A DNA stretch of 47,661 bases from Candidatus Moraniibacteriota bacterium (GCA_016182385.1 JACPGV010000005.1:1-47661), one strand, 5' to 3'; shown: positions 7,276-20,963, numbered from the stretch's first letter. Program-made: numbers and translations. Notes: a model not told the origin generated them from the sequence alone.

Positions 7276-8364
7276 TTATTTGGTACCAGCTAAAAGTTCA
7301 TTCAATCGCCGTTTATATTCCTCGACCGTCGGTTCGCCGGTATTTTTCTCTTCAAAAATATCATTTTTGATAGCATGTTCACCCCGTACCGGAAAACCGA
7401 GAGATTCTCCCTGAATGGGAGAAAACTCCTTCGACAAATTTTCTGGATGAAAGAGAACGATATCATCTTCTTTTTTTTGTGCCCTTTCTTCTTCCTGTTC
7501 CTCGAATGAAAACGCCGTAGCGTCCACAACCGGCAGATTTGCCGGCGCCGGAGCAACAGAAAAAGAATGATTTATTTTTTTGACTCCCTCCGCATTATTT
7601 TTTTTATCACGATTTTCCTGATCGGAAAAATGTTCAAAGGCAAGACCTTCCGGTTTGGTAGGAATAAACTTTTTTGGATCTATGAAGGGCAATATCTCTT
7701 CACGAGAAAAAGAAACGATTGACGGTTTCGTTATCACTTTTTCCTCGCTTCGCTCTTTCTTCTCGCGGCGAAATAACAAAGGGAAAAGTTCCAACAGAAG
7801 AAAAAACAAAAAAGAAAATGCTAAACCCGTCAGCACACTTGTCAGAACAAAAAGCACGGGTTGCTCAATCGTCGTTCGAGAGAATGGTCCGTCGATCACG
7901 CGAATATCGATTTCCTCACCCGGTTTATAATACAAACCAACCATGGAAAAAAGCGTTTGCGATGTTTGTCTTGCCAATCGCTTGGCTTCTTCCGTTGATT
8001 CGCCTATCGCCCTCAGATGAAGCAATCCTCCGGTTTTCGTTTGGCGGACGGACACCATGTCATTCCATTCCTCTCTCCGTTCATCAGGCACCTCTCCCTC
8101 AAAAGGATCAAAACGATCATGTTCGAGAATGAGACGATCGTACAAGGAAAGTGTACCAACCAAAAAAGCGACATCAGATGCCATATCAGCTGCGGATACC
8201 TTGGCGTCACCTTTCGCTATTACCAATATCTCCATTTCGGCACGATATCCTCGAAACGTGTCCAGCCAAAACAATCCGGACGAAAACGCCAAGAAAATGA
8301 ACGTGACAAAAAACATCTTGTTTCGCACGATCGTGATGATACTCTTACTTTGCTCGTTGTGCAT
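7276..8364 (-). CDS. Wzz-like polysaccharide chain-length determinant with long cytoplasmic tail
   Basis: From ATG 8364 this is a 362-residue protein. A first hydrophobic helix near residues 15-38 ends in LDTFRGYRAEMEILV, an extracytoplasmic domain follows with QTSQTLFSMVGLYYKPGEEIDIRVIDGP, and a second helix lies near 165-195. This two-helix layout is that of Wzz/GumC chain-length proteins. The last 160 or so residues are charged, probably disordered and cytoplasmic, with no Walker motifs, so there is no fused tyrosine kinase. The frame extends upstream to 8406, but the 8364 start overlaps the glycosyltransferase end by only 20 bases. Context with GT4 and DUF4012 genes supports a role in surface polysaccharide export. 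Confidence 0.75.
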   Translation of the reverse strand: MHNEQSKSIITIVRNKMFFVTFIFLAFSSGLFWLDTFRGYRAEMEILVIAKGDAKVSAADMASDVAFLVGTLSLYDRLILEHDRFDPFEGEVPDERREEWNDMVSVRQTKTGGLLHLRAIGESTEEAKRLARQTSQTLFSMVGLYYKPGEEIDIRVIDGPFSRTTIEQPVLFVLTSVLTGLAFSFLFFLLLELFPLLFRREKKERSEEKVITKPSIVSFSREEILPFIDPKKFIPTKPEGLAFEHFSDQENRDKKNNAEGVKKINHSFSVAPAPANLPVVDATAFSFEEQEEERAQKKEDDIVLFHPENLSKEFSPIQGESLGFPVRGEHAIKNDIFEEKNTGEPTVEEYKRRLNELLAGTK

Positions 8365-9511
8365 AAGATTTCTTGACGTCATCATATTGATGTAATGCCT
8401 CCTCATACACTTCTAATGTACGACGAGCAATCGCGTCCCAGCTGTATTGCTGACGCACCCTGTCTTCGGCAAGCTTTCCAAGCGCTTGCACCTCTTCGCT
8501 TCGATTGATAAAATACGCCAATTCTTTTTTCAATCCGTTTATATCTCTATTTTGAAATACCGCTCCCGTATTGGCCACGGCCTCACGGTTTGCCGGTATA
8601 TCACTCACGATAGGCATGAGTCCATGCCCCATCGCTTCCAAAAGAGCCAGCGATAATCCCTCATCTTCAGATGGTTGGACAAAAAGATACGCGTGCGAAA
8701 AAAGCTCTTCGAGCGCCTGTCCGGTCTGCTCTCCGGTAAAAACAATACGACTTCTTCCTCGAGCCAATAACTTGAGAAAAGTTTCGTATTCCTCCGTATG
8801 TGTCGGAGAGCCGACGATGACCAATTTAAAATTGTTGGGCAATCTATTGGTATCCTCAAGCTCATTGAACGCCTTGATAAGATAATGAATACCTTTGTGT
8901 TTGATCAATCGACTCACCGAAAGAATATATTTTCCCGGGCGGACCCCCCATTGTGCCAACGCGTCAGTACTCGATACATGTCCCGTTTCCGCACCATTTG
9001 GTACAAACGAAAATGTCCGACGATATTTCGCTTCCGCGTACTGTTTCAATGTTTCGCTGATAACAATCGTTTTTTCCGGAAGAGTACAGGTAATACGCTC
9101 TGCTAAACGCAAGAAAAGACGAGCAAAAACGTTCCACTTCTGATGAAAATAATCACGACTATGAAACGTGGCAATCACACGAACGCCCGGACGCAATATA
9201 CGTGGCAAAAAAGAAAATATGCTCGGTCCGATAGAGTGATAATGAATCACATCGTAATCCTGAAAAATTGCGTGCACCGTCGCGAACAGCGTATGCGTCA
9301 TCGCGTCAAAATGTTTCGTATGCAGACTCGGCACGTGCACCAACGTAACGCCTTGATATTCTCGAAGCGTTCGATCGGTATAGTGATTACGCGCGTACAC
9401 GTATACTTCCTGTCCCTGCGAAGCAAGACGCGTCGAAAGTTTCTCCACGTGTTTTTCCACGCCGCCTGATAATGCAGGAATTCCTTTTTGTCCGATAAAT
9501 GCGATTTTCAT
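8345..9511 (-). CDS. Family GT4 glycosyltransferase
   Basis: From ATG 9511 (MKIAFIGQKG) the protein has 388 residues and a GT-B fold. The N-terminus with SGGVEKHVEKLS is like the rhamnosyl/glucosyl transferases that carry a DUF1972-type N-terminal domain. The C-terminal half has the nucleotide-sugar motif EDEGLSLALLEAM (E-x7-E) and SVSRLIKHKG at the domain junction. It should add a sugar to a lipid-linked glycan at the inner membrane; donor and acceptor cannot be told from sequence. Three more upstream codons are open, but ATG 9511 begins right at the first beta-strand. It overlaps the Wzz-like gene, so they are probably translationally coupled. Confidence 0.88.
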   Translation of the reverse strand: MKIAFIGQKGIPALSGGVEKHVEKLSTRLASQGQEVYVYARNHYTDRTLREYQGVTLVHVPSLHTKHFDAMTHTLFATVHAIFQDYDVIHYHSIGPSIFSFLPRILRPGVRVIATFHSRDYFHQKWNVFARLFLRLAERITCTLPEKTIVISETLKQYAEAKYRRTFSFVPNGAETGHVSSTDALAQWGVRPGKYILSVSRLIKHKGIHYLIKAFNELEDTNRLPNNFKLVIVGSPTHTEEYETFLKLLARGRSRIVFTGEQTGQALEELFSHAYLFVQPSEDEGLSLALLEAMGHGLMPIVSDIPANREAVANTGAVFQNRDINGLKKELAYFINRSEEVQALGKLAEDRVRQQYSWDAIARRTLEVYEEALHQYDDVKKSYAQRAK

Positions 9512-12746: not shown

Positions 12747-13931
12747 TTACTCGTCTTTTTTATGGATGAGCGACTGACATAACCGTTCAAAGGTTTTATT
12801 GAATTGCTCTTCTCCAAAACGTTCATATGCGAAACGTTGTATTTCCTGATAAGAAAACACTTGCTCTTTTGCAAAAAACTTTTTTAATACTTGTTGTAAA
12901 TCACTTTTCTTTTCTACCAATATTCCATTTTTTCCATTTTCAATAATCTCCGTCAATGCTCCTTTTCGAAAACCAAAAAATGGTTTCCCATCGGCAATGG
13001 CTTCCAAAGCAATAAGACCGAATGTTTCAGGTAAAGAAGAGGCACTTACCACGCATGACGCCCGGTGGAGCAACAGAAGAAGTTCCTGTTTTGTTTTCTT
13101 TTCTATAACAGTTACATACGAACTTTTTCGTAAAACAAAATTATTTTCCGTCACCCCCACTATAAGAAGAGGGATCTGCAAAGTATCAAAGATATCCACC
13201 AAATCATTCACTCCCTTTTCTTCACTTATACTTCCAAAATACATGGCGTATGACAATGGTACCGTTTCGTTGTTTAGCATCACTGGTTTGATACCGGAAA
13301 TAAAATGCGGAATTACAACTATTTTTTCTCGTGGCATTCCCGCACCAACAAGAACATCTTGCACAAAACGACTAGGAGCAATAAAAAAATCAATATTGCC
13401 ATAAAAGTTAAACCACTTATTCCAATATGTTTTTACCACCAAGAGCAACCTCTTTCCAAAACTGTATTTCGACATAAAAAGAAATTTCCAGTATCGTTTC
13501 CCGATTTCCGGATAATAAGCATCTTTGTCAGGAGAAATAAGATTATAATCATGAACCGTCATAATGATCGGGATATGACGATCACGTATCGGACCAAGAA
13601 TGGATGGTGATAATTGATGATAAATATTATGCATATGTACAATATCCGGTTGCCATTCTCCAAGCAAAGATTTCATTTTAGAGCGAGCCTCAAAAGACCA
13701 AAATAATCGTCCCACACCCATAAGACGTTGCCACGCATTGGCATCAGAGGAGTGATATCCGACATAACTTGGAAAAAACTTATCAAATATCGATTGCTGA
13801 TTGCTTGGATGTTTCATGGAAAACACTTCTACTTCATGCCCATGACGACGAAGCATGTCGATAACATCAAGAAAATGCCGTTCTGCGCCGCGTCGTTCAT
13901 GAAAAAACTTATTTATTTCCAATATTTTCAT
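12747..13931 (-). CDS. Family GT4 glycosyltransferase
   Basis: A 394-residue GT-B glycosyltransferase. The N-terminus MKILEINKFFHERRGAERH is the acceptor domain opening seen in many GT4 enzymes, VHMHNIYHQL marks the conserved segment near residue 97, and SSLPETFGLIALEAIADGKP supplies the E-x7-E nucleotide-sugar motif. It starts inside the last codon of the upstream O-antigen-ligase-type gene (4-base ATGA overlap), so the two are translationally coupled and likely act on the same glycan. Donor and linkage cannot be deduced. AT content is clearly higher than in the nearby exported-protein genes. Confidence 0.88.
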   Translation of the reverse strand: MKILEINKFFHERRGAERHFLDVIDMLRRHGHEVEVFSMKHPSNQQSIFDKFFPSYVGYHSSDANAWQRLMGVGRLFWSFEARSKMKSLLGEWQPDIVHMHNIYHQLSPSILGPIRDRHIPIIMTVHDYNLISPDKDAYYPEIGKRYWKFLFMSKYSFGKRLLLVVKTYWNKWFNFYGNIDFFIAPSRFVQDVLVGAGMPREKIVVIPHFISGIKPVMLNNETVPLSYAMYFGSISEEKGVNDLVDIFDTLQIPLLIVGVTENNFVLRKSSYVTVIEKKTKQELLLLLHRASCVVSASSLPETFGLIALEAIADGKPFFGFRKGALTEIIENGKNGILVEKKSDLQQVLKKFFAKEQVFSYQEIQRFAYERFGEEQFNKTFERLCQSLIHKKDE

Positions 13932-15421
13932 ACGATCAATGTGCTTTGCGGTTTATCATTCTTTTGTCCTTCATATTTTGCTATCAACAATATACTTTTT
14001 GTCATGCCCAATACGGACCAAAAGAAAATACTCATCAAATTTGTTTCCAAGTACGGTTGCGCCAAAAACACTACAAAAAAATACACACTCAACGTCAAAC
14101 AAATATTTCTCATCCCCACCATAAAAGATCCTTGAGCCATCAAACGAAAAAGTTTATACCAAAGAACAAAAACTCCCAAGGCAAATGCGAAGAATCCAAC
14201 ACAGCCCATCTGCACCAAAAGCGCAAGCCAAGAATTATGAATATTCCGTACTTCAACAAAATCACGATACGTGCCGGATTCTACCGGAATATGAAGACCA
14301 AGCCCTGTTCCAAAAAGAAGTTTTCCTTGAATACTGTCCATGGCACTTTTCCACGTCGAACCACGCCAAGAAATACTTTCATCACCGGTATTGCCAATAG
14401 AAATAATCCGCTCCACCACGACAAAACGCATATCGTTAACAGTACGACTAAGTGATTGTGTCGGAAACAGTGTCGCCAGAAAAAGAGCTGCCGTCAAAAA
14501 AAGACCAACGCAACCAAAAATAACCCCCGTCATTCGCAACGCCGTTGCCCGATGAAAATGATCAAAAAGAAATAAGAAAGCAAATCCCAAGGAAAAAACC
14601 ATGCCAATCCACATATGTCGCATCAATGAAACTACGGTACCAATACCAAAAAAAAGAAACGTTATTAAAAAAAGAACAAAATACTTGCCCGATGACCAAA
14701 AACGCGCGGTAACAAAAAGAGAGAGAAACGCCAAAGAAAAATAGAACGCGTGTGGAAAAGCAAGAAATCGTACTCCCTCGGTGGAAAGCGGCGTATACTC
14801 CGTCCATAACCCCTCGCCTCGAACAAAACCAATAATCAAAAATACTATACCTATCATTGAGGCCGCGAAAAAATATTTCAAAAATACTACTATATTCTCT
14901 TTTGTATTCAAGAATATCGGAAATATAAATATAAATAACCCATAAAAAACATAATTTTTCCACGTACTAAAAGCAGTTGCAACTGACTGCTCTCCAAAAC
15001 CAAAAAAACTCGTCAAAAAATAGAGCGTCGTAAGAATAAAAAAGAAAATAAAAATATATTGATCAAAAGAACTTTTGGAAAGAATATTTTTGAATTTTCC
15101 TGATAAAAAGAAAAAAAGAATATGTGTATATATCCCTGTTATGATAATATCAATCGGATAAATTTTTATGATATCACGACCAAATTGAAATCCTTCAAGA
15201 GTGAAAAAGCGTTCAAACAATATAGTAAGCACAACTACAGCAAAAATACCGGCTCGCGGTCGAAATAATGAAAGAAAAAACATCGATACATATACCGGTA
15301 TTGCGATGTACCACGGCGTCAAACCGAATATTTGACGCGTCAAAAAAACAATAACAAAGCACGCTATTATCAATATTATTGTTTTTCCATCTAAAGAAAT
15401 TTTTTCAAAAACGTTTTTCAT
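13928..15421 (-). CDS. O-antigen ligase / Wzy-type polymerase family membrane protein
   Basis: A 497-residue polytopic protein with roughly 11-12 hydrophobic helices. After the long extracytoplasmic loop containing SWRGSTWKSAMD and LLFGTGLGLHIP comes RNIHNSWLALLVQMG, the H-N-x-[WY]-L motif typical of the O-antigen ligase (WaaL) and Wzy_C superfamily. These enzymes polymerise lipid-linked repeat units or ligate a glycan to its acceptor outside the membrane. In an organism probably lacking lipopolysaccharide, polymerisation or transfer of a surface glycan is more likely than lipid A ligation. It is upstream of and coupled to the GT4 gene. Confidence 0.82.
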   Translation of the reverse strand: MKNVFEKISLDGKTIILIIACFVIVFLTRQIFGLTPWYIAIPVYVSMFFLSLFRPRAGIFAVVVLTILFERFFTLEGFQFGRDIIKIYPIDIIITGIYTHILFFFLSGKFKNILSKSSFDQYIFIFFFILTTLYFLTSFFGFGEQSVATAFSTWKNYVFYGLFIFIFPIFLNTKENIVVFLKYFFAASMIGIVFLIIGFVRGEGLWTEYTPLSTEGVRFLAFPHAFYFSLAFLSLFVTARFWSSGKYFVLFLITFLFFGIGTVVSLMRHMWIGMVFSLGFAFLFLFDHFHRATALRMTGVIFGCVGLFLTAALFLATLFPTQSLSRTVNDMRFVVVERIISIGNTGDESISWRGSTWKSAMDSIQGKLLFGTGLGLHIPVESGTYRDFVEVRNIHNSWLALLVQMGCVGFFAFALGVFVLWYKLFRLMAQGSFMVGMRNICLTLSVYFFVVFLAQPYLETNLMSIFFWSVLGMTKSILLIAKYEGQKNDKPQSTLIV

Positions 15422-15485: not shown

Positions 15486-15522
15486 AAAAAATGCGGGCTC
15501 CTGAAAATACAAGAACCCGCAT
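15486..15522 (-). terminator. Intrinsic terminator of the lipoprotein gene
   Basis: On the minus strand a 10-base-pair stem (ATGCGGGTTC with GAGCCCGCAT, one G-U pair, 12-base loop) is followed by six T. It lies just after the stop of the 15541-16440 gene. Confidence 0.85.
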
Positions 15523-15540: not shown

Positions 15541-16440
15541 CTACGTCTCTTTTTTGAGACACCGGAAGGCCATTCCGGCATTAAGAGCCGCCTGATACTG
15601 CGCGGCGATCACCCGGGCAATCATACCCTGGTAGCCGCGACGAAGCTCGGATTCTTCATCCCAACCCTTGCCGGAGGCGTTGGCCGCGATAAAAATATCC
15701 TGTGCCACGCCCATCGCGACGCCGAACCAGCTCGGCGGAATCGAAACCCCGAACGAACCGTTGGCAACGAGTTTCTCGGAAAAACTGAGTTCCGGATTCT
15801 CGCGCGACACTAGTCGCACTGCTTGTTCGGCAAGCGGCGTCCGCTGATCAACAATGCCTTTCACGCGCACCATCGACCATGCATTGAAGGTTGCAAAGAG
15901 TCCGTTTTGACTCGTCACCCCGACACCTTTTAGTCTTCGAACCGCCGTTCCACCCGAGAGCACGACCTCCTTGCGGTAGGCCGCGTCAGAGATGAGTTTC
16001 TCCGGCGTTTTCACGCTGATCGGCTCGCCGTACAGGTTGTACAGTTTGCCGTAGCGCGTCGTGGCGATGGCGCCCACTACGGACTCGTCTTGGTTGCCCT
16101 CGACGATGAACGTGAGCCGAAGCGCACACTGGGCGTACCCAGCATAGATCGCTTGAACCGGATACTCCCGGCCGGACTTCTCCCCGTACGCGACCGCGTT
16201 GTAGCGAACGCGGAGCGGGTGAAATTCGGCAAAGAGGTCCGCCGGAAAGTTCGCGAGGTGCGCCGTGAAGCGTCCTTCGCTCACCTCCTTCGTCCACTGA
16301 ACACCGACGAAATTGATCGGGTCGATGGACACCTCCTTCTTCGCTTCGCCGTCACCGGTTGAGAGCGCCACGGTGTTGCCACCGAGCGTCCCACAACCGG
16401 CAAGCAGTCCTACGAATAGCAAAACAATCAAAGTGCGCAT
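15541..16440 (-). CDS. Predicted lipoprotein of unknown function
   Basis: The start at 16440 is fixed by a perfect AAGGAGG six bases upstream and by the signal MRTLIVLLFVGLLAGC, a lipobox with Cys16; the frame is open farther upstream, but that part covers the promoter. The mature part of about 284 residues is soluble, with two later cysteines, and includes a conserved-looking stretch with GRFTAHLANFPADLFAEFHP. I do not recognise a family. GC content is visibly higher than in the flanking polysaccharide genes. The gene is alone between its own consensus promoter and a terminator, with a leader of about 125 bases. Likely a surface lipoprotein expressed at a high level. Confidence 0.8.
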   Translation of the reverse strand: MRTLIVLLFVGLLAGCGTLGGNTVALSTGDGEAKKEVSIDPINFVGVQWTKEVSEGRFTAHLANFPADLFAEFHPLRVRYNAVAYGEKSGREYPVQAIYAGYAQCALRLTFIVEGNQDESVVGAIATTRYGKLYNLYGEPISVKTPEKLISDAAYRKEVVLSGGTAVRRLKGVGVTSQNGLFATFNAWSMVRVKGIVDQRTPLAEQAVRLVSRENPELSFSEKLVANGSFGVSIPPSWFGVAMGVAQDIFIAANASGKGWDEESELRRGYQGMIARVIAAQYQAALNAGMAFRCLKKET

Positions 16441-16572
16441 GGCACCCTCCTTATGGAAGTTGAAAAAAGTACTCTTCGATACCGTTTCGGCATCGCGGGC
16501 AGAAACACGGATCACCGCCTTTCCGCCCGTCATACCAAAACATCGTTTCAAAAATATGTACGGTAACTTTAC

Positions 16573-16601
16573 ATTATACTCCTTTTTTCGCCTTTTGTCA
16601 A
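16573..16601 (-). promoter_or_regulatory. Consensus promoter of the lipoprotein gene
   Basis: On the minus strand TTGACA (16596-16601), 17 bases, TATAAT (16573-16578): a perfect sigma-70 consensus promoter. Transcription would start near 16566, giving a leader of about 125 bases before the ATG at 16440. Confidence 0.85.
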
Positions 16602-16644
16602 TGATGTTGGCATTCTTTTGGCTCATTCAAAGCATTTTTATAAA

Positions 16645-16679
16645 AAAGAACGCCCCGCTTTCCATTTGGATCGCGGGGC
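16645..16679 (-). terminator. Intrinsic terminator of the 127-residue exported protein gene
   Basis: The arms GCCCCGC (16652-16658) and GCGGGGC (16673-16679) form a stem which, on the minus strand, is followed by GTTCTTTTTTAT. It lies 30 bases after the stop at 16709. Confidence 0.8.
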
Positions 16680-16708
16680 TTGGGTTGTGGCGGGTTTCGG
16701 CGCTGAAG

Positions 16709-17092
16709 TTACTTCACTTCCAGCGCGCAGCCGGCCTTAGACTTCTTGCATTCCTGCGTCACCCCCACCATTTCGTAGGAGTTGTTCGTCGGCGTGATGA
16801 GAAGCCACTTTCCGGCTTCGTCTCGAAGCTGGAAGCGGCCGCCGTTCTTGGCGACATCCTCCAGAACCCCTTTGCCGGCTTCCATCTTGGCCTGATGGAT
16901 GAAGCCATCCTTCACGCCCTGCCCACGGAAGTGGACAAGGGATGAGGCCGGAATACCGGTGACGGTGATGACGACATTGCCGCCGTCGCGGGCAGCGGAG
17001 ATGCTGCCGCCCTTCACATCGAAGACCTCCGCTTGGGCCAGGCCGGCGAACAGGAACGAAACGATCAAAAGAAATGAACTGAATTTGCGCAT
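16709..17092 (-). CDS. Small exported protein of unknown function
   Basis: Start at ATG 17092 is supported by AAAGGAGG seven bases upstream; nine more codons are open but are Arg/Lys-rich and carry that binding site. The 127-residue product begins with a clear signal peptide (MRKFSSFLLIVSFLFAGLAQA, cleavage after AQA), leaving about 106 residues that look all-beta and end with two cysteines (QECKKSKAGCALEVK) that could form a disulfide. I recognise no family. Like its neighbours it is a single gene with its own promoter, a leader with a hairpin and a terminator, and is GC-rich compared with the rest of the window. Confidence 0.75.
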   Translation of the reverse strand: MRKFSSFLLIVSFLFAGLAQAEVFDVKGGSISAARDGGNVVITVTGIPASSLVHFRGQGVKDGFIHQAKMEAGKGVLEDVAKNGGRFQLRDEAGKWLLITPTNNSYEMVGVTQECKKSKAGCALEVK

Positions 17093-17152
17093 TTTTTTCC
17101 TCCTTTGAGAAAAGCGCATTCGAATGCCGTTGATATTATCGCGGGCGCCAAA

Positions 17153-17170
17153 TCCTTAATTTCTTAAGGA
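17153..17170 (-). promoter_or_regulatory. Hairpin at the start of the exported-protein leader
   Basis: The arms TCCTTAA (17153-17159) and TTAAGGA (17164-17170) around TTTC would form at or near the 5' end of the mRNA for the 127-residue protein, which should start near 17170. A 5' hairpin like this can protect mRNA from decay; an operator for a dimeric regulator is also possible. Confidence 0.45.
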
Positions 17171-17176
17171 CTTTTC

Positions 17177-17205
17177 ATCCTACACCAAATCTTCATTTCT
17201 GTCAA
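17177..17205 (-). promoter_or_regulatory. Promoter of the 127-residue exported protein
   Basis: On the minus strand TTGACA (17200-17205), 17 bases, TAGGAT (17177-17182). The remaining DNA from 17093 to 17404 holds only this promoter, the leader hairpin, and the terminator of the next gene upstream. Confidence 0.8.
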
Positions 17206-17241
17206 TATCTAAAAAATAGCTTTAAAAAAAGGAATTATTAT

Positions 17242-17287
17242 AAAAAAGCGAAAGGGACGTTCGGCGCGATGGCACGAAACGTCCCTT
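17242..17287 (-). terminator. Intrinsic terminator of the LysM/beta-rich protein gene
   Basis: The arms AAGGGACGTT (17252-17261) and AACGTCCCTT (17278-17287) form a perfect 10-base-pair stem. On the minus strand it is followed by TCGCTTTTTTATAA. It lies about 118 bases beyond the stop at 17405, leaving a long 3' untranslated region. Confidence 0.75.
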
Positions 17288-17404
17288 GAAATCAATTTGA
17301 AGCAGAGATCGCGTCTCAGAGCTGGCCGATACCTCGGATGCTTGCGCAGTGCCGGATACCCTTTTTATAGACCTGAGATTGATTCGCGATGTCCGCTGGC
17401 CGCC

Positions 17405-18988
17405 TTATTCGGGCGGAGCGGTTGCTTCGTAGTGCGCCGGGATAAACTCGACTTGAGCTTCCCGGGCATCGGCATCTTGTTTACGGATCTCCGTACCGAG
17501 CTCGACGCGAACGAACGCGCCGATGGTCGTAAGGTTAAGGTCTCCGTGCGAGAGAGGCTGGTTGGCGCGGCTTACACCGATCGGGACCGCGAGCTGCGGA
17601 CCGAACATCAACCATTCCTTATAGCGGAATTCGGGGATGAGCCGGAACCAATTCTGCTTGTCCCAGTTCGTGTGCTGCACTCCCGCGATCCACCGGAGCC
17701 GCCAGGCATCGTCGTCCGTGAGCTTGTGCTCGTAGACGCCGTACACACCGATGCTTCCGCGATCCTGAATCTCTTGCCCGGACCACGATGATTTTGCCGA
17801 CTGGTTCACGCCCTTCCAGTATTCCGCCACGACACCCAAGAGATCGTCTCCGTGGCGTTCGTAGTAGGAACCGTAGAGGCCGATTTTCTGGCCCTTCTGG
17901 TTGACCCAGTACCCCTCGCTGTTATGGCCCTTCATACGATCAAGAAGCCAGCGACCTTTCACCTCGAACGTGGATTTGAACCCGCGCTCATTAATGAAAT
18001 TCCGCTGGAAACCGTACTGGAGACCAATGCCGTACTCTTTGTTCCGGTACGACGACATCAGCGATTCGCCGGCGCCGCCCATCGCGTAGAAGCCCGGTCC
18101 GTGTTGCCACTCGCCGTGTTTGAACACGTGGCAGATGCCTTCGCCGTATGCCCACCGGCCGCGATAGATGCGGTTTGTGTAGACACCGGCCCCGGCCTGC
18201 AATTCGCACGGGATGACATCGCCCTCGACGGCGTGCACGGGCAAGACTTCCGTCTCTTCCGGCTCCGCTTCGGACACGACTTCTTGCGCGGGCGTGGGCA
18301 CGGGCTGGTCCTTTGGTTTCTCACTTTCTTTCGGCGCTTCTTGCGAAACGCTTTTGGAAAGCTCGATCCAGTTGCCACAGTGTGGCACCCAACCGATCTT
18401 GCGACCGTTTTTTAGGGTGTACACTGTAGCGCGGACGGTCTCACCTTTCGGCCACGCGGCGACGACGTTCTTACGAACGACGACGCTTTTCCCGTTCTTG
18501 CCGCAAAATGTCACGGCGGGGATTTTGTCCCCTTGGGAAAGCGTTGCCCACTCATAAGAATGAGTGGCGATAAGGAGACGAACTTCCGTCACCTCCTCGT
18601 CCGAAAGATGAAGAGCTTGCATCGCTTGATGAGCGATATGGGCCCGGCTTTTCTTCGGCGCGCAGGTTTTGAGCGGAGCGCCGCCGACTTTCGTCCAGCG
18701 AAATTCACCACTGCCACCGGCTATCGCGCTCTTACGAGGAGTAGTCGGCTTGGCAGAGACATTTCCGTTCTGCGCCCGCAGAACGACCGTGCGCAGGGTG
18801 TCACCCTTTTGTACGGTCATTTTTTTTAAGTTAACATCAATCACTTCTCCCGGATAAATCCGGTTACAGTTCTTGATGCCGTTTTCCTTGCACACCTGGG
18901 CCACCTGCTTCCAGGTAACCCCCGCGTCTGCTTTTTCTGGCGCAAGAAAAAGCGCCAAAAAAGCAAACAAAATAACAAAGATATTCAT
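17405..18988 (-). CDS. Exported protein with LysM-like N-terminus and beta-strand-rich C-terminus
   Basis: A 527-residue protein. The start at 18988 has AAGGAGG five bases upstream and opens with a signal peptide (MNIFVILFAFLALFLAPEKADA). Residues 24-55 (TWKQVAQVCKENGIKNCNRI, then YPGEVIDV) look like a LysM motif and MTVQKGDTLRTVV resembles a second one; a WVPHCGNWIEL segment and a Pro/Glu linker (about 210-250) follow. The last 270 residues have alternating aromatic strands (GLQYGFQRNFINERGF, SIGVYGVYEHKLT, LRWIAGVQHTNW) and suggest a beta-barrel or beta-propeller. Similar C-termini occur in outer-membrane proteins of diderms, which is odd for this lineage. Strongly GC-rich; probably a highly expressed surface protein. 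Confidence 0.75.
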   Translation of the reverse strand: MNIFVILFAFLALFLAPEKADAGVTWKQVAQVCKENGIKNCNRIYPGEVIDVNLKKMTVQKGDTLRTVVLRAQNGNVSAKPTTPRKSAIAGGSGEFRWTKVGGAPLKTCAPKKSRAHIAHQAMQALHLSDEEVTEVRLLIATHSYEWATLSQGDKIPAVTFCGKNGKSVVVRKNVVAAWPKGETVRATVYTLKNGRKIGWVPHCGNWIELSKSVSQEAPKESEKPKDQPVPTPAQEVVSEAEPEETEVLPVHAVEGDVIPCELQAGAGVYTNRIYRGRWAYGEGICHVFKHGEWQHGPGFYAMGGAGESLMSSYRNKEYGIGLQYGFQRNFINERGFKSTFEVKGRWLLDRMKGHNSEGYWVNQKGQKIGLYGSYYERHGDDLLGVVAEYWKGVNQSAKSSWSGQEIQDRGSIGVYGVYEHKLTDDDAWRLRWIAGVQHTNWDKQNWFRLIPEFRYKEWLMFGPQLAVPIGVSRANQPLSHGDLNLTTIGAFVRVELGTEIRKQDADAREAQVEFIPAHYEATAPPE

Positions 18989-19152
18989 GACTGCCTCCTT
19001 CGAAGAGAAATTCCGTTGAATTGAAAAAACTTCTATTCCAAGGTCGGCCGCCGAAGCAACCGAGCCTCGGAAAAATCCAAGACCGGAGCTGCTTCATAGA
19101 ATGAGCCTCCTTACAAATGATGCCGAAATTGAAAAGAACTTCGAATCGGACA

Positions 19153-19189
19153 TCTCGACCGTTTCGGAGATTTCCGAAACGGAACGAGA
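19153..19189. repeat. Long inverted repeat between Wzz-like and LysM genes
   Basis: The arms CCGTTTCGG (19159-19167) and CCGAAACGG (19174-19182) are perfect; after a small bulge the stem continues with TCTCG (19153-19157) and CGAGA (19185-19189). No T-run follows on the minus strand. It lies just after the stop of the Wzz-like gene and in the leader of the LysM gene, so it may be a rho-type or processing hairpin, or a regulator site. Confidence 0.6.
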
Positions 19190-19200
19190 GGTTCGTTTCT

Positions 19201-19836
19201 TTATTGAGTCATATCAAAACGAAACTCCTCTTTCATCAATTGCCATGTTGCGTTGATAAACATCCCGCACATGATGCCAAAAACAAAGAGAGCAAAAAAT
19301 GTAAACATCGATGGGTTTTTTTCAATAATGGGACCGGAAAGCAAACGCACGTTTACTTTTTCATCACCGTTCCCAAATAGCTCACCGCTTTTTGTGCTTA
19401 GCACCTCAATCGTAGCACTTGCCACTTTAGAAACTTCACGCTCACTAGAACCGGCAAATGACACTCTTATAAATCCAAGTTCTCCATTTTTTTTCACATC
19501 AAGCATGTGCGACCATTCTTCCAAACGATCTTTCTTATCGCGTGGTAAAAAATCATTATGTACGCGACCAGTATTCACAACAGCCTCGATAAAACTCTCA
19601 CTATAAATTACTTCACTCAACACGCGGCTCATATATTCAGCGGAACGTGTTGCCGTATAATAATCTTGCCCCTGCTGAGACGATGACACCATAAAATCAG
19701 CACTTGCCTTGAAACGTTCTTGTACAAAAAAAACAGACGCGATACCTAAAAACGCGATAATTAACCCCAAAAGAAATCCTCGCGAAAGGCTTTCCTTAAC
19801 AATAAACATCGCGCTTTTTTTGACTACAAAATTCAT
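19201..19836 (-). CDS. Short Wzz-like chain-length determinant
   Basis: A 211-residue protein with two transmembrane helices (about 19-40 and 178-198) bracketing an extracytoplasmic domain, the layout of Wzz proteins. The region after helix 1 (ERFKASADFMVSSSQQGQDY) and the segment ATIEVLSTKSGELFGNGDEK followed by VNVRLLSGP correspond to the same parts of the longer Wzz-like protein at 7276-8364, including the R-[VL]-[IL]-[DS]-GP motif before helix 2. It lacks the long cytoplasmic tail and any kinase. It stands alone between exported-protein genes, with a strong promoter and no polysaccharide gene directly beside it. Confidence 0.75.
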   Translation of the reverse strand: MNFVVKKSAMFIVKESLSRGFLLGLIIAFLGIASVFFVQERFKASADFMVSSSQQGQDYYTATRSAEYMSRVLSEVIYSESFIEAVVNTGRVHNDFLPRDKKDRLEEWSHMLDVKKNGELGFIRVSFAGSSEREVSKVASATIEVLSTKSGELFGNGDEKVNVRLLSGPIIEKNPSMFTFFALFVFGIMCGMFINATWQLMKEEFRFDMTQ

Positions 19837-19878
19837 ACCGTTTTCACGTAACGAATTACAAATTCAAGAAAACATATC

Positions 19879-19907
19879 ATTGTACCAAAAAAACAATAAT
19901 TTGTCAA
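19879..19907 (-). promoter_or_regulatory. Promoter of the short Wzz-like gene
   Basis: On the minus strand TTGACA (19902-19907), 17 bases, TACAAT (19879-19884) preceded by TGG, i.e. an extended -10. It lies about 43 bases upstream of the ATG. Confidence 0.8.
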
Positions 19908-19931
19908 TCCCAAAAATCTTATTTTTTACCT

Positions 19932-19978
19932 AAAAAACAAAATCCCCGAACATGCTTTATTCAAGCCTTTTCGGGGAT
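19932..19978 (-). terminator. Intrinsic terminator of the DUF5648-like gene
   Basis: The arms ATCCCCGAA (19942-19950) and TTCGGGGAT (19970-19978) form a stem followed on the minus strand by TTTGTTTTTT. It lies 12 bases after the stop at 19991. Confidence 0.85.
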
Positions 19979-19990
19979 AAATACAGGAGA

Positions 19991-20866
19991 TCAGTATTTA
20001 AGACACTGCGTCCCGTTTGGGTATTGTTGTTTTGCCGCCGGCCACCCGACTTGAACCAATTTGTCCACATTGGCCCACGAAATCTCTCCGGATTTGAGTT
20101 TCAGGTGAACCTGAACGCAGTCGTGGCTGACTGTGTTTTTTATTACGGCCACCCCATTTGTATCTGGGGCAACGCACCTCGCAGAATCATCGCCCCATCC
20201 GACATTGTCGGAATCGAGGCAAATCTTCGCCACGTCATGCAGAGAGATCTCCCTGTTCGGTGGAATAAAGCTGAGAATAAAGTCTCCAGCAAACCCCAGC
20301 GTGATAACCACTTGGTTTTGACCGACGTTCATTTGTGTCAGCCCTGCCAAGCGACTTCCGGGTGGTGGCGAAATTGCCGCGGCACCTACACAAAACTCGA
20401 TGCCGCCAACATTCCACCCACCACGGTAGAATGCATCAACCACCAACTGCTGGGTGGTAAACCGGTAACTCGTCCCCTCATAACTACGAGGGGTATTAAC
20501 GATCCATCTGACAGGTTCTGTTCCTGCCGGACAAGTGCCATTCATCGGCACGTGGGCAGTGAACACCTGCCCTTCAACTTTCCAGTTGAGATCGTTGGGA
20601 TCAAGAATCCCGCAATTTTGAGAAAAAAAATGCCCTTTTGTTATTTTGTTATAATGACGGCAAATAATCGATCCGCCATTATTAACAGGCATTGTAATAC
20701 CTGTCAAAACCCACCCGGGACCAGCGCCACCGGAATTGATGACAGCCATTTCGGCTGCATCCGAGCTCCAAAAGAAGCGGTTTGTCTGAGTATTGTAATA
20801 CTCGAACGCCTCACTCCCAAAACAAACTTGAGAGAACAAAAACAAAACGATTGTAATGAACTTCAT
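19991..20866 (-). CDS. Exported protein with DUF5648-like repeats
   Basis: ATG 20866 is chosen because AAAGGAGG lies six bases upstream and a signal peptide follows (MKFITIVLFLFSQVCFG). The 291-residue product then shows EYYNTQTNRFFWSSDAAEMA with GPGWVLTGITMPV, later CRHYNKITKGHFFSQN with WKVEGQVFTA, and a third unit near GWNVGGIEFCV. This Y-N-x-x-T-x-x-[HR]-F-[FW] ... W-x-x-x-G pattern is that of DUF5648 repeats, found in secreted proteins of unknown, perhaps carbohydrate-binding, function. Eleven further codons are open upstream but include the ribosome-binding site. GC-rich, monocistronic, with promoter and terminator of its own. Confidence 0.75.
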   Translation of the reverse strand: MKFITIVLFLFSQVCFGSEAFEYYNTQTNRFFWSSDAAEMAVINSGGAGPGWVLTGITMPVNNGGSIICRHYNKITKGHFFSQNCGILDPNDLNWKVEGQVFTAHVPMNGTCPAGTEPVRWIVNTPRSYEGTSYRFTTQQLVVDAFYRGGWNVGGIEFCVGAAAISPPPGSRLAGLTQMNVGQNQVVITLGFAGDFILSFIPPNREISLHDVAKICLDSDNVGWGDDSARCVAPDTNGVAVIKNTVSHDCVQVHLKLKSGEISWANVDKLVQVGWPAAKQQYPNGTQCLKY

Positions 20867-20934
20867 GATACCCTCCTTTGGGTCATTTTTTGAAAGCAAA
20901 AACTCTCAAAAGTTCAACAAAATGTGAACATTGA

Positions 20935-20963
20935 ACTATAAAAAAACTATCTGATTTTGTCAA
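20935..20963 (-). promoter_or_regulatory. Promoter of the DUF5648-like gene
   Basis: On the minus strand TTGACA (20958-20963), 17 bases, TATAGT (20935-20940), giving a leader of about 60 bases. Confidence 0.8.

Follow-up and report, generated by a model that had tools for sequence, protein, structure and literature searches.

The window analysed here, a 47,661-nucleotide stretch of the 776-kb genome of a Candidatus Moraniibacteriota bacterium (GCA_016182385.1 JACPGV010000005.1:1-47661), carries between positions 15541 and 20963 four genes for exported proteins, three of which form a conserved cassette within a polysaccharide locus. The Moranbacteria, or Moraniibacteriota, are a lineage of the Patescibacteria (candidate phyla radiation, CPR). 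The four genes and their neighbours are listed below with, where relevant, the G+C content of third codon positions (GC3) and the initiation site.

12747-13931, minus strand: glycosyltransferase family 4 (GT4) gene of the same locus
13928-15421, minus strand: Wzy/O-antigen-ligase-like polymerase (PF04932, Wzy_C; E 2.2e-12), downstream of the cassette
15541-16440, minus strand: cassette gene 1, 299-amino-acid (aa) lipoprotein, family F4; GC3 0.70; AAGGAGG
16709-17092, minus strand: cassette gene 2, 127-aa exported small protein, family F11; GC3 0.76; AAGGAGG
17405-18988, minus strand: cassette gene 3, 527-aa exported barrel protein; GC3 0.68; AAGGAGG
19201-19836, minus strand: Wzz/CapA-like chain-length determinant, of ordinary composition and with no Shine-Dalgarno site; upstream of the cassette in relatives
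19991-20866, minus strand: DUF5648 gene, 291-aa exported protein with its own promoter, AAGGAGG and terminator; an orphan outside the cassette

A conserved cassette between Wzz-like and Wzy-like genes

Genes 15541, 16709 and 17405 constitute one conserved exported-protein cassette of Moranbacteria, with a Wzz-like gene on one side and a Wzy-like gene on the other. In a search set of 55 genomes, consisting of the own genome and its relatives, homologs of the 527-aa barrel protein occur in 23 and homologs of the lipoprotein in 18, the own genome being included in both counts, while the small protein has homologs in 11. The three genes mostly adjoin one another in the genomes that have them. Twenty relative loci were read, and their arrangement is a Wzz-like gene, the three cassette genes in an order that differs among lineages, a Wzy-like gene and then one for a GT4 glycosyltransferase, with frr and rseP often found beyond the Wzz-like gene. 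A Wzz-like neighbour is present in 18 of these loci and a Wzy-like neighbour likewise in 18; one is missing only at contig ends (L085, L086 and L087) and in L083, for which a simple open reading frame (ORF) caller listed no Wzz-like gene. The barrel gene of L080, masked by an ORF on the opposite strand, was read separately. In L089 and L092 the Wzy-like gene is on the opposite strand.

The Wzz-like gene matches TIGR01006 at E 1.4e-6 and Wzz at E 0.043, neither score reaching its curated cut-off. At window positions 7276-8406, where relatives hold a second Wzz-like gene, lies a gene for a 376-aa protein with no NCBIfam match. The lipoprotein belongs to no Pfam family, and its structural model, of which only part was effectively tested, matched nothing below 0.001 in Foldseek and never exceeded a Z of 2.5 in VIA. 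A tblastn search against phages returned no match, and neither did a scan of genome contigs with the 527-aa protein as single query yield a confirmed one; an alignment-based scan with the same family found eight loci, several of them in records named Candidatus Moranbacteria or Moraniibacteriota.

The DUF5648 gene was found in its own genome only (1/55) and is probably a lone acquired surface gene. The initial annotation had treated the four genes as one group. They are not one unit, the DUF5648 gene being unrelated to the others and separated from them by the ordinary gene at 19201-19836.

Expression signals and composition

In all four genes AAGGAGG stands 5-6 nucleotides 5' of the ATG (minus-strand starts 16440, 17092, 18988 and 20866; checked base by base), and it precedes the start of no other gene in the window's list of 39. 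Genome-wide, AAGGAGG-N3-10-ATG occurs 30 times versus 17 for the reversed control, and five of the 30 sites fall within this 5 kb; an exact 16S 3'-end pattern had no match in the genome. The N-terminus of the lipoprotein contains the lipobox LLAGC, the cysteine of which is invariant across 16 homologs, and the signal peptides of the remaining three proteins were assigned by eye from their N-termini. The promoters and terminators are as follows.

16573-16601, minus strand: gene 1 promoter, TTGACA-17-TATAAT, 12/12 consensus match
17177-17205, minus strand: gene 2 promoter, TTGACA-17-TAGGAT, 10/12 consensus match
20963-20935, minus strand: DUF5648 gene promoter, TTGACA-17-TATAGT, 11/12 consensus match
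19879-19907, minus strand: Wzz-like gene promoter, TTGACA-17-TACAAT, with TG before the -10
15491-15522, minus strand: gene 1 intrinsic terminator, 13-bp stem and T-run
16640-16680, minus strand: gene 2 terminator-like hairpin, GCCCCGC stem and T-run; ends approximate
17243-17288, minus strand: gene 3 terminator-like hairpin, 11-bp GC-rich stem, then CGCTTTTTT; ends approximate

Gene 17405 has no promoter of its own; the nearest, at 19907, lies 5' of the Wzz-like gene and probably serves gene 3 as well. Promoter-like sites number 12 in the region versus 4.8±2.0 in shuffles, and a stable hairpin followed by a T-run lies 3' of each of the four genes. Genome background was taken from 14 stretches and the window, comprising 243 genes listed by the simple ORF caller, which may miss or mis-start genes; the Shine-Dalgarno motif is lacking in 220 of them. 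The signals ascribed to the four genes at the outset, that is, a full AAGGAGG and a signal peptide or lipobox on each, three clear promoters (gene 3 being the exception), a terminator close to every gene and a lack of Shine-Dalgarno sites in most other genes, all hold.

Against a sample mean GC3 of 0.413 (standard deviation 0.076), the three cassette genes are strongly GC-rich, and the DUF5648 gene, with a GC3 of 0.51, lies within 1.3 standard deviations of the mean, so that the GC-richer composition claimed for all four is marked in three and only slight in the fourth. In the str and S10 regions of the genome the genes for EF-G and ribosomal proteins have a GC3 of about 0.36-0.48, and the Shine-Dalgarno site is missing from almost all of those examined. 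The contrast, for which housekeeping genes had been named as the check, is therefore real, neither the composition nor the sites being common to such genes in the sample checked, yet high expression alone is no explanation for it. Two further GC-rich genes were noted in the same genome, one for a 234-aa protein (L107:13968-14672; GC3 0.78; AAGGAG) and one, apparently exported, for a 161-aa protein (L113:2244-2729; GC3 0.70; AGGAGG).

The initiation sites recur among relatives. In 21 loci, 45 of 53 cassette genes have a Shine-Dalgarno motif ahead of them versus 9 of 149 flanking genes under the same start-picking rule, with a p of 1e-27 that overstates independence because the loci are related. 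The sites are present in GC-rich and AT-rich genomes alike and, since the same genes of the cassette carry them throughout the order, are a kept property, which bears out the suggestion of surface proteins with selected initiation sites. Cassette GC3 is less variable than backbone GC3 (slope 0.40), the cassette exceeding the backbone where the genome is AT-rich and roughly equalling it where the genome is GC-rich. Together with the separate promoters and terminators, the strong Shine-Dalgarno sites would set expression of the cassette apart from that of flanking genes without such sites. The locus offers a clean natural case of Shine-Dalgarno initiation retained in a genome most of whose genes dispense with it.

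The consensus promoters, strong Shine-Dalgarno sites and private terminators might reflect codon-selected genes expressed at a very high level, as in abundant surface proteins, and the narrow range of cassette GC3, centred near 0.6, is in keeping with this. We consider this explanation rather unlikely, given that cassette GC3 does not rise above the backbone in GC-rich genomes. Strong expression with selected codons, as originally put forward, is unsupported because the ribosomal and elongation-factor genes are unremarkable in GC3 and nearly devoid of Shine-Dalgarno sites.

Two further elements lie between the Wzz-like gene and gene 3.

19138-19203, minus strand: conserved covarying hairpin, immediately 3' of the stop codon of the Wzz-like gene and preceding the barrel gene
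19095-19112, minus strand: leader-ORF start, AAGGAGG-N8-ATG, of a short ORF (MKQLRS...) upstream of gene 3

All 12 loci that were folded have a hairpin (z -3.0 to -7.1) in the interval from the end of the Wzz-like gene to the cassette gene that comes next, and it is retained though its sequence diverges among these relatives. Across six close loci, 93.6% of cells retain the 24 pairs, of which 11 have changed on both sides, and the covariation is well above that of shuffles and slid controls; a DNA palindrome would give the same compensation. The element has no U-tract and no Rfam match, and may separate expression of the Wzz-like gene from that of the barrel gene. The short Shine-Dalgarno-led ORF that comes 3' of it in the close relatives too (MKQL or similar), and that is similar in five relatives, may specify a leader peptide.

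Predicted barrel, descent and proposed role

The 527-aa product of gene 17405 comprises a signal peptide, a degenerate LysM domain, an alpha/beta domain (about residues 95-211), a disordered proline-rich linker, the predicted barrel (residues 261-496) and a short tail. The region used for a barrel-only profile was the following.

17447-18217, minus strand: barrel domain of gene 3

AlphaFold2, run on 19 sequences, confidently predicts a 12-stranded barrel of transmembrane type, with 12 long strands in residues 261-496 and a predicted local distance difference test score (pLDDT) mostly above 90. Autotransporter translocator domains ranked first in Foldseek (best E 2.2e-7), and VIA-align matched the modelled barrel to BrkA (Z 20.5, 2.6 Å, 219 residues) and to EspP, NalP, KdgM and intimin (Z 16-19). 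The in/out alternation of hydrophobicity along the strands is 4.79 versus 2.60±0.63 in residue shuffles (p 0.0004), and invariant polar residues number 12 on the inside and three on the outside; the two results are not independent because the face was assigned by hydrophobicity. With the barrel-only profile, 29 of the order's 129 genomes were positive, in five family groups. Beyond the order, a phylum-wide search with the full-length profile was weak on the barrel because LysM-only matches dominated.

An alternative is that the C-terminal domain is soluble, a beta-rich domain at the surface to which AlphaFold2 has given the form of a membrane barrel. This would suit a lineage in which no Omp85 was found and for which an outer membrane is described as missing (PMC12102498), and also the replacement of the domain in some relatives. 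We judge it unlikely in view of the high pLDDT across 12 strands, the Z of 20.5 against solved membrane barrels and an alternation of lipid-side and inside residues above chance.

Ten genomes were used for maximum-likelihood trees, one of concatenated backbone proteins and one of cassette proteins; the two have identical topology, which argues against recent joint acquisition. Both join the own genome to G022, the nearest relative of the cassette, with support of 80/89 (backbone) and 93/93 (cassette); the Wzz, Wzy and GT4 proteins are placed slightly differently, with weak support. A recent joint transfer from a GC-rich donor, Shine-Dalgarno sites included, would account for a GC3 of 0.68-0.76 against a mean of 0.41, and G022 is itself GC-rich (locus 56% GC) with about the same cassette GC3, the small protein even scoring higher with it than with same-genus genomes. 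Such a transfer is nevertheless unlikely, as the locus and its flanks are the same in relatives, the backbone shows the same pairing with G022, and the cassette sites occur irrespective of genomic GC. In-place exchange of the cassette between close species is compatible with the trees, in which support for the joining branch is moderate. The proposal that the four genes were acquired together thus finds no support, three being syntenic in relatives with the same tree topology and the fourth occurring in one of 55 genomes.

The explanation that we favour, and regard as probable, is that a peptidoglycan-anchored barrel protein acts with the lipoprotein and the small protein in a surface-polysaccharide system, the three genes forming a cassette inside the Wzz/Wzy locus. 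The 17405 product would be secreted and probably held to peptidoglycan by its LysM domain, with the barrel carried on the proline-rich linker and, as its predicted fold suggests, inserted in a lipid layer. The lipoprotein and small protein are likely to be partners of the barrel protein, and the set would most likely form an outer station where the polymer made by Wzy is passed through or fixed.

A number of observations weigh against this explanation. The polysaccharide-handling role is suggested by one line of evidence, the gene neighbourhood, and OPX/Wza (Poly_export, PF02563; OPX, outer-membrane polysaccharide export) was found in none of the 55 genomes. Although 13 of the 19 family members have a recognisable LysM (best E 2.8e-9), that of the own genome scores 15.5 bits against a Pfam cut-off of 20.9, and a Pfam scan of the 19 members (E<=0.1) gave otherwise only matches at chance level. 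Support for the fold comes from a prediction based on 19 sequences, and the barrel profile had no homolog among the sequences of solved structures in the PDB. Two relatives (L089:6774-8549 and L092:2886-4466) keep the N-terminal part with a C-terminal domain that is not alignable to the barrel, and the C-terminal domains of L090 and L091 align to it only weakly. Finally, no genome of the 55 had an Omp85 (PF01103) match over the cut-off, versus seven positives among 14 control genomes, so that, within the reach of this search, the customary insertase is absent.

Outer membranes are characterised by transmembrane beta-barrels, which Omp85 proteins insert. A barrel is surprising here because Patescibacteria are described as having no outer membrane (PMC12102498) and no Omp85 gene was found, although envelope data are missing for most CPR (PMC8871954). 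We advance only tentatively the broader idea that Moranbacteria make LysM-anchored transmembrane beta-barrels without Omp85, which would imply either a wall-tethered outer lipid layer for polysaccharide handling or placement in the membrane of a cell lived on. Some Patescibacteria are epibionts of Gammaproteobacteria (PMC13059738), and a Gram-negative host would supply the beta-barrel assembly machinery (BAM), no Omp85 having been found in these genomes, but delivery of the protein into the outer membrane of such a host, and not into the own envelope, seems improbable, since the LysM domain and the lipoprotein partner point to a protein attached to the cell that makes it, and the position inside a Wzz/Wzy locus suggests a role in that cell's own coat. 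If an order of Patescibacteria with no Omp85 found does have a conserved barrel anchored to the wall, this would bear directly on the question of a second membrane, on barrel insertion without BAM and on contact between epibiont and host.

Comparison with known barrel systems

A literature search, with subscription journals and preprints mostly outside its coverage, turned up no account of Patescibacteria with barrels of the outer-membrane type. Tethers of the OmpM/SlpA type have SLH domains, coiled coils and other barrels, and the 527-aa protein differs from them in its LysM, alpha/beta domain and 12 strands. The likeness to these proteins of true diderms is a looser one of plan: in diderm Firmicutes and Deinococcus they join a wall-binding domain to a beta-barrel (PMC10628300, PMC9388160). 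The OPX/porin systems of Myxococcus pair beta-barrel porins with Wzx/Wzy export (PMC9603273, PMC9601211). The association of a barrel protein with a Wzz/Wzy polysaccharide locus is similar; the Gram-negative setting of Myxococcus and the absence of detected OPX/Wza here are differences. The oligosaccharide porins KdgM and NanC are 12-stranded too (Z 16.4 and 15.3 to the predicted barrel), and the barrel predicted here has charged invariant residues on its inside; unlike these free-standing porins, which have no LysM, the barrel described here is linked to one, and no sequence relationship to them was found.

The inverse autotransporters of type Ve (intimin, invasin and YeeJ), of which YeeJ binds peptidoglycan (PMC5595812), differ in several respects. 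The 527-aa protein has an additional alpha/beta domain and a proline-rich linker ahead of the barrel, whereas the part past residue 496 is a short tail with no Pfam passenger domain, in place of an immunoglobulin-like passenger. The barrel matches no Pfam autotransporter or inverse-autotransporter barrel family in any of the 19 members, and the lineage has no detected Omp85. Two membership features, the Pfam barrel match and the passenger, are thus lacking, yet the predicted barrel superimposes well on those of intimin (4e1s, Z 16.1) and invasin (4e1t, Z 15.8), and the protein resembles the inverse autotransporters in plan, with the same order of signal peptide, N-terminal LysM and 12-stranded barrel.

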